From NCBI GenBank assembly GCA_003050565.1, contig PEBW01000001.1, positions 124,001 to 188,000 on the forward strand: a stretch of 64,000 nt of DNA, read 5' to 3'. The first letter of the stretch is position 1; every line of letters starts with the position of its first letter. The notes beneath the pieces are model-generated. The model ran no database searches, was not told the DNA's origin, and worked only from the letters and a program-made list of their open reading frames with translations. Source of the DNA: Brockia lithotrophica (GTDB lineage: Bacteria; Bacillota; Bacilli; Thermicanales; DSM-22653). This document shows positions 37,383 through 44,208 of the stretch, piece after piece. Position numbers and translations under genes: made by a program.

Positions 37383-38114
37383 CGTTACACACCCAAAACG
37401 TACGAAGGGTACCACATGCTCCACGACTTCCGCCGCGTCGACTTCTCCTTCTGGCGCACACTGGTCGAAGACGAACAAAGGGCGCGACTCGAAGCCCTCC
37501 GCGAGCTTCTGGCGGGATGGGCCGAACTCGAAACCCGAGGAGAAGGGCATTCCCGGGTGTACGCCGTCCTCGGCCACAAGGCCGACCTCCTCTTCCTCCA
37601 CTTCCGAAAGTCGTTCGACGCCCTCCTCGACGCCCAATTCGCCCTGAACCGCATCCCCGCAGGGGACCTCTTCCCCCCGGCGTACGGCTACTACTCCGTC
37701 GTCGAACTCGGAAGCCACACGGGCGACCCTTCCTCCGACCCCAAACTCATGGCCGAGCTCTACCCCACGCCTCCCAAGGACGGGTACGTCGTCTTTTACC
37801 CCATGAGCAAGAAGCGGAGCGAGGACGAGAACTGGTACTGGATGCCGCAGGAAGAGCGGGCGCGGATGATGCGCTCCCACGGCGAGATCGGCCGCAAGTA
37901 CGCGGGTACGATTCTCCAGGTCGTCGGCGGCTCCCAAGGTCTCGACGACTGGGAGTGGAGCGTGACGCTTTTCGCCGACGACCCGATCGCCTTCAAAAAG
38001 ATCGTCTACGAGATGCGCTTCGACGAGGCGAGTGCCCGCTACGGCCTCTTTGGTCCCTTCTTCGTCGGCCGCGCGCTGGATGAGACTAATTTAAAAAATA
38101 TTTTTGGTATTTAA
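37380..38114 (+). CDS. hemQ: Coproheme decarboxylase (HemQ/ChdC), with replaced C-terminus
   Basis: Predicted 244 residues of the chlorite-dismutase fold. YPMSKKRSEDENWYWMPQEERARMMRSHGEIGRKYAG contains the proximal His (SHG), and DDWEWSVTLFADDP and MRFDEASARYGLFGPFFVGR are classic HemQ. It converts coproheme III to haem b in Bacillota. The final eleven residues (DETNLKNIFGI) are encoded by AT-rich DNA, starting at about 38085, that continues into the island; the normal C-terminus has apparently been replaced. A terminator follows at 38139. Confidence 0.92.
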   Translation: MRYTPKTYEGYHMLHDFRRVDFSFWRTLVEDEQRARLEALRELLAGWAELETRGEGHSRVYAVLGHKADLLFLHFRKSFDALLDAQFALNRIPAGDLFPPAYGYYSVVELGSHTGDPSSDPKLMAELYPTPPKDGYVVFYPMSKKRSEDENWYWMPQEERARMMRSHGEIGRKYAGTILQVVGGSQGLDDWEWSVTLFADDPIAFKKIVYEMRFDEASARYGLFGPFFVGRALDETNLKNIFGI

Positions 38115-38138
38115 TTTAAAAACAAATTTGTAAATTTT

Positions 38139-38162
38139 AAGCGGGAAAAAGCCCGCTTTTTT
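38139..38162 (+). terminator. Terminator of hemQ
   Basis: AAGCGGG (38139-38145) pairs with CCCGCTT (38152-38158), followed by TTTTTTA and more T. Confidence 0.85.
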
Positions 38163-38189
38163 ATTTTTTAATTTTATAAAATATTACTT

Positions 38190-38990
38190 GGCGGAACACC
38201 GGAATTTCGGCGTTCCTTGTTTTTCGTCAAAGCCGACCTCGGTCATGATCCTCGTTCGCGGACACATACAGAACATGCAACTTTTGTTGTTATACACAAC
38301 ATTTTGTTTGTCGATCAAAAAGTCGTATTGTCTCTCAGTCGTGCCAAATAGTCCGGATGTGGATCATCTGTCGGATGCGGTGTTCGTCCCACAGGCCCAT
38401 GATAATTTTTAAGTCTTCATAGATTTTGTCCGCAAAAAAATTGAATCGCGTAATAACTTATAAGTTTTTTGTTGCAAATTAATCAAAATAGTATCATCTG
38501 ATGTAACATTAACTTTTTAAACGAGTGTTACGATATATGCGACCTGTAGTTCATGCGTGATGTTGACGATGAGACGCAGCTTGTATCCAAACACCGTAGT
38601 TTTGTCACGTATCCCTCGCTTTCGTGCACCGTCTTAGGACCATAAACCGCATCCCCGTCTCAACTCGCTACCCGTCGGGCACGGTTTTTTCGGCCGATGA
38701 CGCGCTAACGGTCGATTAGCTTTGCTGTGTCGGATGGCTTTGCTGTCTAGAGTCAGACGTTTCCCGTAGTCGGAAAGGTATGTGGCCACAGTCCGCTGAA
38801 GCCCGACAACGTAGGACTTCAGATCAGCCTAATGAGCATCAACCCATATCCAGTAGCAACTGAAGACCGCGGCACTTGGTATGCAATCACCGAAATCCAA
38901 AAGCCAGCGTAACTGTTCGTTTTGAATCGGGGTTCGTGTCGCAGAGATTCGACACACGGGCAACAAAATACGGTTTGGTATTTATTTTCT
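38190..38990 (-). pseudogene. Decayed DDE transposase (IS4/IS5-like)
   Basis: Conceptual minus-strand translation, joining frames, gives RTPIQNEQLRWLLDFGD then PSAAVFSCYW, YLSDYGKRLTLDSKAIRHS, DKTTVFGYKLRLIVNITHEL, ADKIYEDLKIIMGLWDEHR, and near the C-terminus RTIWHD and a piece like NAEIPVF. This order (RHDP..LR..GF; DSKAI; WFGYKLHLIVD; ADKGYDD; IDIRKMW) is that of DUF772/DDE transposases common in thermophilic Firmicutes. Several stops and frameshifts interrupt it, so it is inactive. It sits between the hemQ terminator and the bacteriocin genes. The remaining non-coding stretch to 39239 is plain AT-rich DNA. Confidence 0.65.
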
Positions 38991-39239
38991 TGCAAATTTA
39001 AAATTAATCCGAATACCAATGCACTGTAACAGTGAAAAAACTTAATTGACTTATACTCTTAAAAAAGTTTTTTATCTCCGATCTTAGACATATTACAGAA
39101 TATAGTCTAGTAATTGTAATATATATTAATTTATGCACGTAAACGATTAAAATAAAAATTTTTAAATCGTTTATTTGTTTTAACATACTTAACATAAAAT
39201 TATAAATTTTATTTTTATTTATATTTTTATAAAAATACT

Positions 39240-40424
39240 TTATAACAAAGAAATTATTGATATTATTACACTCATAATAATAATTATAAATAAAAACATA
39301 TAGTTCAGCAAGAACGATTTATAGTTTTGATTAATTAATTCAATTTTTCTGTAATACATAAATCCTGTTATAAAGGTTAAAAATATTATTGCTAAGTTGT
39401 TTATTACATAATTGTAACTAGGTTTGTTATCACTTGTGATATATGAAATTATTATTGTTCCGATCATTCCGACAAATATCAAAGAAATCATTATTAAGCT
39501 ATAAAAGTATATTGTACTCGCTTTAAATCTACCTAATTTATTTATTATCAAAGAAGACTGAAGTAATTCAGATCTTGATTTATCTATTTCGTTTTCTTCG
39601 CGGTTATTTCCAATAAATGTATGTAGTAACAGTATGTAAATTTCGTACACAAACGCAACAGACGGAATAACATAACCTTTTGTTAATAAAATACCTGTCC
39701 CTTTTTCTATATAAATTGAAATAAAATTGTCAGTCACTTTATCAAAAATGTACATTATAAGTGCAACTATTATCGATATAATAATAAATAAACTTCTATT
39801 TTTTGTAATATAATCTATAAATATTTTTGTTATAGATCTGGGTATTTTACTTGATTCAGAAGCAAGTAGTTTAAGAGAAATATTATTAGTATATTTATAT
39901 AACATAAGATAAACTAATATCACAATTATTTTAAAAATAAGCAAATAAATATAAAAGTTTAGCTTGTAATTAAAAATAAAACTTAGTTGGATTAAACAAA
40001 TAATCTTTAATATCATTTGTAAATATTTATTAAGTAAATAATTTAGAAAAAATATTATTGTTTCTAATATCATTATAAAGAAGTATGCATACTCTTTTGT
40101 TAAAATTAAGAAAAATGTTAATAAGATAAAGGATAAAGATAATTGTAATGAATATCCTTTTTTTACAGTATAATATAAGTGTCTTATTATATAAATAATA
40201 TGTACAAAAATGACGCTAGGTCTTTTATATTCATAAGTAAAATCAACTTTATTAATATTTGTTTCTAATATTATGTAATTTAATATAAAGTACCCAAGAA
40301 TTATATAATTTAAAGGAAATGAATTAATCTTAAAAAAAGAAATCACAATAAACGAAATTATTGATAATGTTAAAATCAGCATTTCTATATATGTAATTAA
40401 GCTTTTTTCGTATAGACGAATCAT
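39240..40424 (-). CDS. Multi-pass membrane protein of the bacteriocin locus (putative exporter/maturation component)
   Basis: 394 residues, extremely rich in Ile, Leu, Tyr and Lys, with about 10-12 predicted membrane helices. A hydrophilic stretch, GNNREENEIDKSRSELLQSSLIINKLGRFKAS (about residues 275-306), resembles the cytoplasmic coupling region of ABC-2-type permeases. No family is recognisable by eye. As the last gene after the bacteriocin precursor it occupies the place of the large membrane protein (CirB-like) found in circular bacteriocin clusters. Together with the ATPase at 41.8 kb it could form the exporter. It starts 33 bases after the 170-residue gene. Confidence 0.6.
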   Translation of the reverse strand: MIRLYEKSLITYIEMLILTLSIISFIVISFFKINSFPLNYIILGYFILNYIILETNINKVDFTYEYKRPSVIFVHIIYIIRHLYYTVKKGYSLQLSLSFILLTFFLILTKEYAYFFIMILETIIFFLNYLLNKYLQMILKIICLIQLSFIFNYKLNFYIYLLIFKIIVILVYLMLYKYTNNISLKLLASESSKIPRSITKIFIDYITKNRSLFIIISIIVALIMYIFDKVTDNFISIYIEKGTGILLTKGYVIPSVAFVYEIYILLLHTFIGNNREENEIDKSRSELLQSSLIINKLGRFKASTIYFYSLIMISLIFVGMIGTIIISYITSDNKPSYNYVINNLAIIFLTFITGFMYYRKIELINQNYKSFLLNYMFLFIIIIMSVIISIISLL

Positions 40425-40457
40425 TTTAATCTCCTCCTCTTATAAATATTTTTTAGT

Positions 40458-40970
40458 TTACATATGAAAAATCTTCGTGTGCTGTATAAAAGAATATATA
40501 ATATCCAAAATATAAATAACTGAAAAAACAATTACAGCTTTCCAATTTTTTATTTTATGATTAATAAATAACATCATAACTGTTATACCTATGATTTGTG
40601 GTATAATGTATAAACTATAATTGTATTTCCCAAAAACAAAGAAAAATATTATACTTAAAATAACTGTTAAAGATTTCGGCAAAAACACAAGATACATATA
40701 TATTACATTTTTAAACTCATCATCAAAAAACATTAATATTAAAAATCTAGATATTAAATATTGAATTATTGTCATAGCAATTATGAATATTGTTGATAAA
40801 ATCGTTAAAGTTTTATATAAGCTATACTCATTTTCAAAAAAATTTTTTAGATCTAACGAATTATTCGCGATTGAGTTTAATATAATAGGTAACATTAAAT
40901 AAATATAAATGTAAACTAAAATAGCGTAAATTAATATACTAATTATCGATAAAAAAAATTCTTTTTTCAT
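40458..40970 (-). CDS. Four- or five-helix membrane protein of the bacteriocin locus
   Basis: 170 residues with hydrophobic segments at about 7-30, 57-80, 89-112, 119-138 and 144-160. Size and position match the roughly 170-residue DUF95/SpoIIM-like proteins (CirC, As-48C) of circular bacteriocin operons, but I do not see the Gly/Asn pattern of DUF95, so the assignment is contextual. The gene lies about 200 bases downstream of the precursor, behind a hairpin that could reduce its expression. ATG preceded by AGGAGG (CCTCCT on the plus strand at 40980). Confidence 0.6.
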   Translation of the reverse strand: MKKEFFLSIISILIYAILVYIYIYLMLPIILNSIANNSLDLKNFFENEYSLYKTLTILSTIFIIAMTIIQYLISRFLILMFFDDEFKNVIYMYLVFLPKSLTVILSIIFFFVFGKYNYSLYIIPQIIGITVMMLFINHKIKNWKAVIVFSVIYILDIIYSFIQHTKIFHM

Positions 40971-41126
40971 ACAAATATACCTCCTATAAAATATTTAGTG
41001 TTGTAATCAAATATATAAACAATAATACATAACAAATTTTTTTATTTTACTTTTTTAATTATTAATTCCTCCGAGATCAATTTTTAATTAATAATTCAAA
41101 TCAACAATTGTTTAATTAAATTAAAT

Positions 41127-41152
41127 AGGATCATCTCTAAAAAGATGATCCT
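41127..41152 (-). terminator. Hairpin after the bacteriocin precursor gene
   Basis: AGGATCATCT (41127-41136) and AGATGATCCT (41143-41152) form a perfect ten-base-pair stem with a six-base loop, flanked by A/T-rich runs on both sides. It probably lets most transcripts stop after the precursor gene, giving excess precursor over export proteins. Confidence 0.7.
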
Positions 41153-41187
41153 AAAAATATTTTTGTTAATTTTTTTTATATTATTAA

Positions 41188-41472
41188 TTAAAACATAGCT
41201 GCTTCATATTGCCCGTATCTCTTCAAAATTCTAAGTGCGGCTGCAAGAATTCCTGCAGAAATCGAACCAACGCCAGTTATAGCACCAACAATGGCAATGA
41301 CAAGAGCCACGTTTTGATAAGCATCCAAAAGTTTTACTACAGTTAGTGCGCTGGCTGTAGAAATACCTAGAGCTTTCGCAATAAATGCTGGTTCACCAAC
41401 AGTAACCGCAAGTAACGTCACCACAAAAACCAGAGCGGTAAAATAAACACCACGTTTGACAAACACTCGCAT
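41188..41472 (-). CDS. Circular bacteriocin precursor (amylocyclicin/circularin-like)
   Basis: Predicted 94 residues from an ATG eight bases after GGAGG. A 30-residue leader with one hydrophobic helix (VYFTALVFVVTLLAVTVGEPAF) is followed by a core starting IAKALGISTASALTVVKLLD and ending LKRYGQYEAAMF. The core is 64 residues if it starts at that Ile, the same length as amylocyclicin (LASTLGISTAAAKK...KKYGKKYAAAW, from memory). It shares LGISTA, a central Gly-rich TGxGxIS turn and a basic C-terminal helix (KRYG). Circular bacteriocins are joined head to tail and permeabilise membranes. Here Phe replaces the usual C-terminal Trp/Tyr. The gene is clearly less AT-rich than its neighbours. ATPase and membrane genes flank it. 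Confidence 0.82.
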   Translation of the reverse strand: MRVFVKRGVYFTALVFVVTLLAVTVGEPAFIAKALGISTASALTVVKLLDAYQNVALVIAIVGAITGVGSISAGILAAALRILKRYGQYEAAMF

Positions 41473-41503
41473 AGCAAAAACCTCCTTAAAGTTTAAGATT
41501 TTT

Positions 41504-41528
41504 ATATGAAGCCAAAAATGCTTCATAT
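41504..41528 (-). promoter_or_regulatory. Perfect inverted repeat in the precursor gene leader
   Basis: ATATGAAGC (41504-41512) and GCTTCATAT (41520-41528) form a nine-base-pair stem with a seven-base loop, ending 32 bases upstream of the precursor ATG. It could be an operator or an mRNA-stabilising stem. I could not identify a convincing -35/-10 pair around it. Confidence 0.45.
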
Positions 41529-41640
41529 CTTGATGATGAGAATATTTTTGTCTAGGTGCTAACTTTTTCCAGTTATCCCATCATCTTCCAATGTTGCCTC
41601 CTAGCCCTACCTTACCATCCTCACCCCTCCCCTGTCGGGG

Positions 41641-41762
41641 AAATGTTTTGGGAGTTCGTTCGGGAGAATCCCCTTGTCGAACGTGTCCTCCTCGACTACG
41701 TCTAGGTCGACGATCGTCATCTGGCTCGCCCTGGCCAAGAACTCCACATAGCACATAATTGA
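41641..41762 (-). pseudogene. Displaced, decayed fragment of pilO
   Basis: From 41664 to 41762 the sequence aligns without gaps to 43858-43956 inside the intact pilO gene; I count about 14 differences in 99 bases (roughly 86% identity). AATCCCCTTGTCGAACGTGT is identical in both. Differences are mostly G/C to A/T in the island copy and create stop codons in the pilO frame. Orientation is the same. The copy lies in the 313-base gap between the ATPase and the precursor gene. Confidence 0.85.
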
Positions 41763-41785
41763 AAATTAATTAGTTATACTGTTAT

Positions 41786-42394
41786 TTAACTTTTCGTAAT
41801 TATTTTTTCTTTATCTATGTGTATTTCATTTGAAATATCAAAAAGAAGTTTATTTATCGTACTATGAGATACATAAATAATAACAGAGTTTTCAGACATG
41901 CTTACAAATCTATCAACTAGCATTTCTACGCTTCTAGAATCTAATGCAGACATTGATTCATCAATTAATACAATATCCCAATCCTTTACAAATACCAAAG
42001 ATAATCCTAGCTTAGCCTTCATTCCTGTAGATCCTTTTTCATAAGGTGTATCTATCTTTCCGTCGAAAAAATCTTCTATTGCCGCAATTTGTTTTGATGT
42101 TGGTTTTATTTTAAATACATTCCATAAAATCTCTAAGTTTTCTCTAAAAGTAAAAGGTCGGATTCCAACGGGATCTACTGTTAGATACAATATATTTTTT
42201 CCTTTTACGGTAATTTTTCCTGAATAGTTTTTGTCAAGACCGGCGATCATCCTAAGTAGAGTTGTTTTACCGGCACCGTTTCTTCCTATTAAATGATAAA
42301 TACCACTAGTAATAGATAAATTTACATTTCTGAAAACAACTAAGTCTCCGAATTTTTTCGTTACATTATCTAATTCAATGCCTACGGTTTTCAT
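41786..42394 (-). CDS. ABC transporter ATP-binding protein of the bacteriocin locus
   Basis: 202 residues, a short ABC ATPase. Walker A is GRNGAGKTTLLRMIAGL, the signature is the degenerate GSTGMKAKLGLSLVF (LSGGQ replaced by STGMK), Walker B is DIVLIDESMSALD, and the switch His is in VSHST. Degenerate signatures of this kind occur in bacteriocin self-protection and export ATPases. It is probably partnered by the downstream membrane proteins for export of, or immunity to, the circular peptide. It lies upstream of the precursor, in the same orientation. Confidence 0.85.
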   Translation of the reverse strand: MKTVGIELDNVTKKFGDLVVFRNVNLSITSGIYHLIGRNGAGKTTLLRMIAGLDKNYSGKITVKGKNILYLTVDPVGIRPFTFRENLEILWNVFKIKPTSKQIAAIEDFFDGKIDTPYEKGSTGMKAKLGLSLVFVKDWDIVLIDESMSALDSRSVEMLVDRFVSMSENSVIIYVSHSTINKLLFDISNEIHIDKEKIITKS

Positions 42395-42424
42395 ATAGAA
42401 TACCCCCGAATTAAATAAATTAAT

Positions 42425-42503
42425 GAAATACCTAGAACAACCGTAATAAATTCTAGTTAACTAACAGTAAATACAAGTAACCTCACCACAAAAACCAGGA
42501 AGG
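42425..42503 (-). pseudogene. Vestigial second copy of the bacteriocin leader region
   Basis: GAAATACCTAGA...GTAACCTCACCACAAAAACC in this segment aligns to 41362-41440 of the precursor gene over about 79 bases with roughly 16 to 20 differences. Read in the matching frame it gives LVFVVRLLVFTVS, a stop, then LEFITVVLGI, against LVFVVTLLAVTVGEPAFIAKALGI in the intact gene. Similarity ends sharply at both sides. It is a relic of a duplicated precursor gene just upstream of the ATPase gene. Confidence 0.75.
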
Positions 42504-42593
42504 GAGATATTAATTTCTTTTTGATAAATCTTAATTCAATTTAAAAGCAAGCATTATTATTAATAATAAAATTAAATTTTAAATTTTTAAATT

Positions 42594-42785
42594 TTAAATT
42601 AATCTTATTATTAATTTTATTGTTGCATACAAAGTTAAAAAAACGTTAATTAGCAATAATATTATAATTGCACTATCATTCCTATTATTTTTGTTCTTTT
42701 CTTTACTGAAAAGGTATCCTAACATTATCCATAAAATTATCGATATCACGGATAATAGAACATCAAAAGAGGACATCTTATCCAA
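42594..42785 (-). CDS. Small two-helix membrane protein (candidate immunity protein)
   Basis: 63 residues with two hydrophobic segments (VLLSVISIILWIMLGYLF and AIIILLLINVFLTLYATIKLII) joined by a charged loop rich in Lys, Asn and Arg. Circular bacteriocin loci usually encode a small, basic, hydrophobic immunity protein of about 50-60 residues, and this is the only such gene here. AGAAGG lies about ten bases before the ATG. It is the first gene of the island after ssrA. The function is inferred from size, charge and position. Confidence 0.5.
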   Translation of the reverse strand: MDKMSSFDVLLSVISIILWIMLGYLFSKEKNKNNRNDSAIIILLLINVFLTLYATIKLIIRLI

Positions 42786-42795
42786 CCTTCTTACT

Positions 42796-42822
42796 TATTA
42801 TTCTTACTGGGTAAAAATAATA
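42796..42822 (-). repeat. AT-only inverted repeat abutting the ssrA 3' end
   Basis: TATTATTCTTAC (42796-42807) and GTAAAAATAATA (42811-42822) form a 12-base-pair stem (one G-U pair in RNA) with a three-base loop. Its outer end touches the CCA of ssrA. It may act as a weak ssrA terminator or mark the island end. Confidence 0.5.
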
Positions 42823-43174
42823 TGGTGGAGGCGGGGGGACTCGAACCCCCGTCCGAAAGCCTCACCACGGCCGCTTCTCCGAGCGCAGTCCGGGTTTTCG
42901 TCTCGCGCTCGGGTCTCCCCCGGACGGGATCCCCAAACGCCAGCCCTCCTTTGTGTCGCCCCTCCCCGGAGGGCGAAGAAAGAGGCCAAGCCCGCTCAGA
43001 TGTCCCCTATGCCGCCCTGCGGGCGCGGGCGACACAGAGGCTGACCGCGCTAATTAGGCAGCCAGGGCAAGTTCGCGTTCGTTCGCACTTCTTGAGTTTT
43101 GCGTTTTTGCGAGGACGCAACCCCTCGGCTCGCTACGACCGCTTCGAGACCCCCGTCGAAACCAAGGCGCCCCC
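42823..43174 (-). ncRNA. ssrA: Transfer-messenger RNA (tmRNA)
   Basis: 352 bases on the minus strand. The 5' end GGGGGCG pairs with the 3' CGCCTCC before ACCA. GGTTTCGACGGGGG near the 5' end and GGGGGTTCGAGTCCCCC at the 3' T-arm are hallmarks. The internal reading frame from GCA encodes the tag AKTQNSRSANERELALAA followed by TAA, ending in the ALAA recognised by ClpXP. tmRNA with SmpB frees stalled ribosomes. A promoter lies at 43191-43220. No GC-rich terminator follows; island DNA begins directly after CCA. Confidence 0.96.
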
Positions 43175-43261: not shown

Positions 43262-43618
43262 TCACCCGGTAGCCGTCCTCTCGGAAGGCATCTCGGAAAC
43301 CTCCGCAGGCGGCTTGGGAACGGCGGGCACGGAACGGGCGCCCACGAGGCGATCGACGCCCAGGCGCCGGCGGGCAAGGCTCACGCGCGCCCGCTCCACA
43401 AACCACGCGTAAAAGCCGGCGTAGACCCCCACGACCACCGCGAGGTAGATCCAGAGCAGTGGGGGTTTGAGAAACGCCGCCACGAGGTGCGCGCCGACGA
43501 CCACCGCCGCGGGAAGCCGCGCGAGCCGCTCGGGCCAGCCGGCTTCCCTAAGCCCCCACGCGAGAAGTCCTGCCAATCCGAGGCCGAAAAGTACGCCGAA
43601 GACCGCCGCGGTGCTCAT
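43262..43618 (-). CDS. Small membrane protein at the end of the pilus operon
   Basis: Predicted 118 residues with about three hydrophobic segments (FGVLFGLGLAGLLAWGL, LPAAVVVGAHLVAAFL, LLWIYLAVVVGVYAGFYAWFV) and a cytoplasmic, Pro/Arg-rich tail. The ATG overlaps the pilO stop codon by four bases, so it is translationally coupled to pilO. I do not recognise a family; a role in pilus assembly is suggested only by position. Confidence 0.65.
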   Translation of the reverse strand: MSTAAVFGVLFGLGLAGLLAWGLREAGWPERLARLPAAVVVGAHLVAAFLKPPLLWIYLAVVVGVYAGFYAWFVERARVSLARRRLGVDRLVGARSVPAVPKPPAEVSEMPSERTATG

Positions 43619-44208
43619 TGCCCCTGCCCCCCCACGTTGAGATCCCAAATCCAGGTCGCCCACTCGTACCGCACGCGGAGCGGAGTATCCCCGACAAACC
43701 AAGGAGCGTGCGTGTTTTCCCCGTCCAGGCGAAGGGGTGTGGCGAGGGGCGGGGCGGCCGAAAGGGCGGCAAAAAATGCGGAGAGCGACGCGTACGTCCC
43801 TTCGAAGGTCCCCTGCCAGCGCAAGCGCTTGAGGGGAATGTTCTGGAGCTTTTCCGGCAGAATCCCCTTGTCGAACGTGTCCTCTTCGACGACGCCGAGG
43901 TCGACGATCGTCACCTGGCTTGCCTTGGCCAAGAGCTCCACCTCGCGCATGATCGACCAGCGGTCACTCCGCGACGGCAGATACGCCGCAACCTGGGGAT
44001 CGGCCTGGCTCGGCTTTTCCTTTTCCGCCTGGCGGATCTTGCTCGCGTACACGTCCACCTCTCGCTTCACCCGGTCGCGCTCCTCCGCCGCGTTGCGGAC
44101 TTCACGCAAACCGCCGAGGAAGAGGAAGCCAAACACGCCCACCGCGAGCAGGAGAAAGGCGAGGGCCGCGGCGCCGACCTTGCGGAACACGCGGGCGCTC
44201 GAGGTCAT
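43615..44208 (-). CDS. pilO: Type IV pilus alignment protein, PilO-like
   Basis: 197 residues. One N-terminal membrane helix (GAAALAFLLLAVGVFGFLFLG), a coiled-coil stretch with Glu/Arg repeats (about 35-65) and a ferredoxin-like C-terminal domain with LSAFFAALSAAPPLATPLRL are the PilO layout. PilO dimerises with PilN and links the cytoplasmic PilM ring to the pilus. ATGA overlaps couple it to pilN before and the small membrane gene after. A decayed copy of its middle part lies in the AT-rich island. Confidence 0.75.
   Translation of the reverse strand: MTSSARVFRKVGAAALAFLLLAVGVFGFLFLGGLREVRNAAEERDRVKREVDVYASKIRQAEKEKPSQADPQVAAYLPSRSDRWSIMREVELLAKASQVTIVDLGVVEEDTFDKGILPEKLQNIPLKRLRWQGTFEGTYASLSAFFAALSAAPPLATPLRLDGENTHAPWFVGDTPLRVRYEWATWIWDLNVGGQGQ

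Follow-up and report, generated by a model that had tools for sequence, protein, structure and literature searches.

Gene content of the bacteriocin island

The window analysed here is a stretch of 64,000 nucleotides from Brockia lithotrophica. Between a hemQ-like gene and the tmRNA gene it contains an island (about 38087-42819) with a GC content of about 20-45%, which is absent from a genus mate (genome G001). The features of the island and of its right flank are as follows:

38181-38985, minus strand: broken transposase of the DDE_Tnp_1/DUF772 type within the island, with 53% identity to the middle of a transposase that is intact in genome G004
39240-40424, minus strand: membrane protein B, 27-30% identical to B of the Priestia flexa, G334 and G397 clusters, with E-values down to 4e-53
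40458-40970, minus strand: membrane protein E, 27-31% identical to E of four clusters, with E-values down to 5.5e-20
41188-41472, minus strand: intact circular bacteriocin precursor A, 94 aa, above the cut-offs of PF09221 and TIGR03651
41637-41763, minus strand: decayed pilO-like gene fragment between D and A, a copy of 43833-43957 at about 83% identity and in direct orientation
41786-42394, minus strand: ATP-binding protein D (ABC_tran, 3.3e-15)
42425-42498, minus strand: precursor-gene relic covering the leader-to-core junction, with an in-frame TAA and without a core, 82.4% identical to 41360-41433
42594-42776, minus strand: small membrane ORF of 60 aa upstream of the relic, resembling the ORF that precedes the precursor in G397
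42823-43174, minus strand: tmRNA gene (ARAGORN), the right border of the island as set by comparison with G001
43615-44208, minus strand: intact host gene of pilO-like type that gave rise to the fragment, named by its neighbourhood and a GspM match below the cut-off

Precursor A scored 46 bits against PF09221 (cut-off 23.6) and 37 bits against TIGR03651 (cut-off 30.7), and both curated cut-offs thus place its predicted product among the precursors of the Uberolysin/circularin A family. The ORF list gives a longer start at 41526 for this gene; the ATG at 41472 was chosen, which is preceded by the ribosome-binding site AAGGAGG. Protein D is 56-58% identical to the D proteins of the Priestia flexa, G334 and G397 clusters. 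The small membrane ORF could possibly be an immunity gene. An inverted repeat with attenuator-like placement, AGGATCATC...GATGATCCT, is found between the precursor and E (41129-41152). Between the small ORF and the relic lies a long AT-rich inverted repeat, a near-palindrome of 57 bases (42559-42615) with an 86% match, which may be a terminator or a hot spot of recombination.

The transposase remnant is heavily frameshifted. No Pfam transposase match was obtained for it, either in single frames or in a joined reading, and it was recognised only via the intact relative in G004. The repeats found did not include a copy of the tmRNA end at the left border, such as an integrase would produce, and a search of viral contigs returned no relatives of the precursor or the ATPase. 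The end of the hemQ-like gene (38080-38114) has AT-rich last codons unlike those of G001, with the typical hemQ length and residues kept (LDETNLKNIFGI), and looks as if it had been swapped in from an AT-rich homologue.

A dead copy of the precursor gene

An earlier note on this DNA had described 42425-42503 as the relic of a second precursor gene, based on a match of about 79 bases. The homology was confirmed, while the significant match proved to end at 42498 and to cover 74 bases. Local alignment of 42425-42498 with 41360-41433 of the intact precursor gave 61 identities in 74 gap-free positions and a score of 83. The pairwise alignment with shuffling that the note had proposed as a check placed this score above the expectation for AT-rich random sequence, with a maximum of 37 for 1000 dinucleotide-preserving shuffles aligned against the precursor region; against the whole AT-rich island, the best of 200 shuffles reached 62. 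A blastn comparison of the island against the window returned the pair with E = 7.8e-15, and in a repeat search it was the longest direct repeat in the island. Genome searches detected no third copy beyond these two.

The minus-strand translation reads LVFVVRLLVFTVS*LEFITVVLGI, exactly as had been reported. It has the same orientation and frame as the intact precursor, and the TAA stands in frame at the position of the precursor's Glu codon. The match stops at the core residues GIS, and no core follows. Abrupt loss of similarity had been claimed for both ends. This holds on the ATPase side, where similarity breaks off sharply. On the 5' side, 14 of 39 bases beyond 42498 are identical (p = 0.09), so that DNA similarity is not significant there; the frame nevertheless remains open upstream, with FIKKK against FVKRG in the precursor, and further leader sequence may persist. 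Because the segment is homologous to the precursor, shares its orientation and frame, carries a nonsense codon and lacks the core, it is almost certainly a dead, truncated second copy of the circular bacteriocin precursor gene, whose product could no longer be encoded.

Of the 24 codons compared between relic and precursor, ten have changed, all of them non-synonymously and none silently. Nine of the 13 substitutions run from GC to AT. Only one of the 13 falls at a third position (p = 0.04), a skew for which GC-poor third positions could account. Since the third positions of the precursor are already AT-rich, the pattern fits decay under AT-biased mutation, with no sign of a preserved peptide. 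The pilO-like fragment likewise changed mainly from GC to AT (13 of 15 changes).

Two readings would deprive the segment of this meaning. Chance likeness, for which the AT-richness of the island might speak, was ruled out by the shuffles (83 against 37) together with the blastn E-value, and its probability is practically nil. It is also very improbable that the segment has a function, for instance as a translated leader or in the regulation of the ATPase gene, and retains its precursor sequence by coincidence. It does lie in the transcript upstream of D, it aligns with the precursor without gaps, and the frame past its stop continues until it overlaps the start of the ATPase gene in an ATGA. 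However, all ten altered codons change the amino acid and the spectrum is of the decay type, like that of the pilO-like fragment, and all four related clusters lack an element of this kind before D. The dead copy is most likely without any role now, and most likely a scar of the rebuilding of the cluster.

Gene order in related clusters

Four clusters served as references: those of the Priestia flexa plasmid NZ_CP120594.1, Streptococcus sp. M334, and genomes G334 and G397. All four have the order A-B-C-D-E, with C the SpoIIM/DUF95 protein. In the window the order of transcription is small ORF, relic, D, pilO-like fragment, A, E and B, and C is missing. An ATPase search across 398 sampled genomes of the phylum returned no other close cluster.

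The single-precursor clusters of Priestia flexa and Streptococcus sp. M334 (pneumocyclicin-type) share homologous A, B, D and E genes with the window, but they retain SpoIIM and the canonical order. The other two are closer to it in precursor content. The G334 cluster, of the same subtype (D 58% identical), also has a duplicated precursor; there, however, both copies are open with identical cores, the order is canonical and SpoIIM is present. Its adjacent precursors (locus L063, 4922-5209 and 5398-5763) share these identical cores but differ in their leaders, a pattern suggestive of core gene conversion. In G397 (locus L081), again of the same subtype (D 56% identical), the second precursor is defective, being internally truncated by loss of the middle of its core. 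A similar small ORF lies upstream there as well, whereas the order is the canonical A-A2-B-C-D-E and the SpoIIM gene is present. This ORF of 63 residues precedes the precursor, with which it shares the strand, and resembles the small ORF of the window with a score of 87 (shuffle maximum 56). Since the relative of the small ORF precedes the precursor in this one genome, the relic probably occupies the original precursor site and the intact A a derived one.

Clusters with two or three precursors have been published in surveys (PMC7132975, PMC8534725), among them those of Bacillus cereus BCE-01, B. thuringiensis AFS079576 and B. weihenstephanensis SDA_NFFE664, for which duplication was invoked (PMC7132975). 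These resemble the window in having more than one precursor, and in two of the clusters the copies are about 82% identical; in contrast, the copies there are reported to be intact and to have promoters of their own, while the second copy of the window is truncated, dead and located across the ATPase gene (PMC7132975). Duplication of the precursor is therefore already known, and what the window adds is the trapped piece of a pilO-like gene and the loss of SpoIIM. Most multi-precursor clusters catalogued so far are intact sets. In the window, a dead copy together with an equally diverged fragment of a host gene illustrates one way for such duplications to end, with an operon reordered in the process.

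The pilO-like fragment and the history of the cluster

The fragment at 41637-41763 is a decayed copy of 43833-43957, in the same orientation as its source gene 2 kb away. It differs from the pilO-like gene of its own genome at 21 of 125 ungapped columns (16.8%), and the relic differs from the precursor at 13 of 74 positions (17.6%). The two divergences are equal (Fisher p = 1), which is weak evidence of equal age as the samples are short. About 23 bases separate the ATPase stop from the fragment end that corresponds to 43957, which is where the joint of a tandem duplication is expected. At the 11 sites that separate the pilO-like gene of this genome from that of G001, the copy sides with its own genome at five and with G001 at six. 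Because of this near-even split, the fragment appears to be about as old as the separation of the two species, or else to come from a third lineage.

Given that the divergence of the fragment from its source matches that of the relic from the precursor, a single local tandem duplication followed by losses would be the simplest account of relic, fragment and gene order, and we rate it slightly above an even chance. The duplicated segment would have extended from inside the pilO-like gene through the tmRNA, the small ORF and the precursor to just behind ATPase D, and its tandem duplication would create the observed joint between D and the pilO-like fragment. The upstream copy would then have retained the small ORF and the ATPase and lost the SpoIIM gene and most of the precursor, including the core, so leaving the relic. 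In the downstream copy, the intact precursor and a piece of the pilO-like gene would have survived, with E and B behind them, and pilP, the tmRNA, the small ORF, C and D would have been lost. The present order could be reached in this way only if B already stood behind E, which requires an earlier move. We thus infer a single duplication as the origin of both copies, the relic as the mark of the original site, and a position of B behind E beforehand.

The two equally diverged remnants do stand in the order expected from a tandem duplication with loss. A second breakpoint is required in addition, as the 5' end of the relic has no significant match to the 5' end of the precursor. No duplicated tmRNA, small ORF or pilP was detected between the pilO-like fragment and A, and the spacers contained no significant remnants of B, C, D, E, the small ORF, the tmRNA or pilP. 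A candidate tail of the SpoIIM gene (C) just before the ATPase did not reach significance (p = 0.10). The island itself occurred in none of the relatives searched, and neither the genus nor the family nor the sampled class yielded an intermediate or relative with both whole copies, an absence that carries little weight as few close relatives were among the genomes searched. Tandem duplication-random loss is a process described for mitochondrial genomes, where it likewise reordered genes and left decayed copies at the expected places; in contrast to those cases, the window holds a bacterial bacteriocin cluster whose history is read from a single genome.

Two other histories were considered. An adjacent pair of precursors, as in G334, might have arisen first and one member decayed, with D, A, E and B changing places and the pilO-like piece being inserted in separate, later events. 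This course is possible, though we regard it as improbable on balance: the adjacent pair in G334 and the truncated second precursor of G397, which belong to clusters of the same subtype, as well as the published multi-precursor clusters (PMC7132975, PMC8534725), are in line with it, but the copies in the window flank the ATPase gene on opposite sides, and a pilO-like fragment in direct orientation with a divergence matching that of the relic is left unexplained by an adjacent pair alone. Alternatively, the relic and the ATPase could be resident, with the pilO-like fragment, A, E and B brought in by recombination from a second cluster of a related species. The pilO-like copy, as near to G001 as to its own gene (six and five sites) and possibly from a third lineage, would agree with such a merger, as would the AT-rich end of the hemQ-like gene, which looks recombined. 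We nevertheless hold it to be unlikely, as the relic and A are closer to each other than to any outside precursor and no second ATPase is present.

Both alternatives offered in the earlier note gain support: that the island once carried two precursor copies from the two-precursor clusters of relatives, and that it was rearranged by duplication from the host-gene fragment of matching divergence inside the cluster. The identification of a dead second precursor was right yet incomplete, as it left out the rearranged order, the missing SpoIIM gene and the pilO-like fragment between ATPase and precursor; it was also silent on the relic sitting, as it probably does, at the ancestral precursor position.

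The missing SpoIIM gene and the state of the cluster

A gene for a DUF95/SpoIIM membrane protein is an expected member of a circular bacteriocin cluster (PMC8534725, PMC7132975) and is present in almost every cluster surveyed (PMC7132975); when it is removed, mature leucocyclicin Q is cited as staying within the cells (PMC7132975). Of the genes that define a complete cluster, the island has that of the ATP-binding protein (D) and lacks that of the DUF95/SpoIIM protein. No match to PF01944 was found in the island, and the only matches in the genome lie on contigs C10 and C11. The same profile detected the C protein in all four relatives, in one of them just under the curated cut-off.

No stop interrupts A, B, D, E or the small ORF, all of which have full length and the sizes found in relatives. 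In a simple neutral simulation, 5% divergence produced about ten stops in these five genes, which stayed open while their dead neighbours, the relic and the pilO-like fragment, drifted by about 17%. Perhaps C was lost only recently, or a partner encoded elsewhere fills in for it. That the cluster still makes a circular bacteriocin without a SpoIIM protein of its own, with the partner on C10 or C11 or with E serving instead, seems rather doubtful. The window offers a test case of whether the DUF95 partner, deemed indispensable, can be absent from a cluster or supplied from elsewhere in the genome.

Contigs C10 (locus L074) and C11 (L075) of the same 1.69-Mb genome contain two further circular bacteriocin loci. 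In each, a PF09221 precursor is followed by a membrane protein of about 740 residues, a long fusion that ends in a SpoIIM domain. The two loci are about 80% identical to each other, and a similar one occurs in genome G003. The genome also has a second copy of the tmRNA gene on contig C3 (G000:C3:10663-11014; L032 5663-6014), which is 98.3% identical to 42823-43174. This copy is a tmRNA by its Rfam score and was not called by ARAGORN; the ends of its acceptor stem appear damaged.
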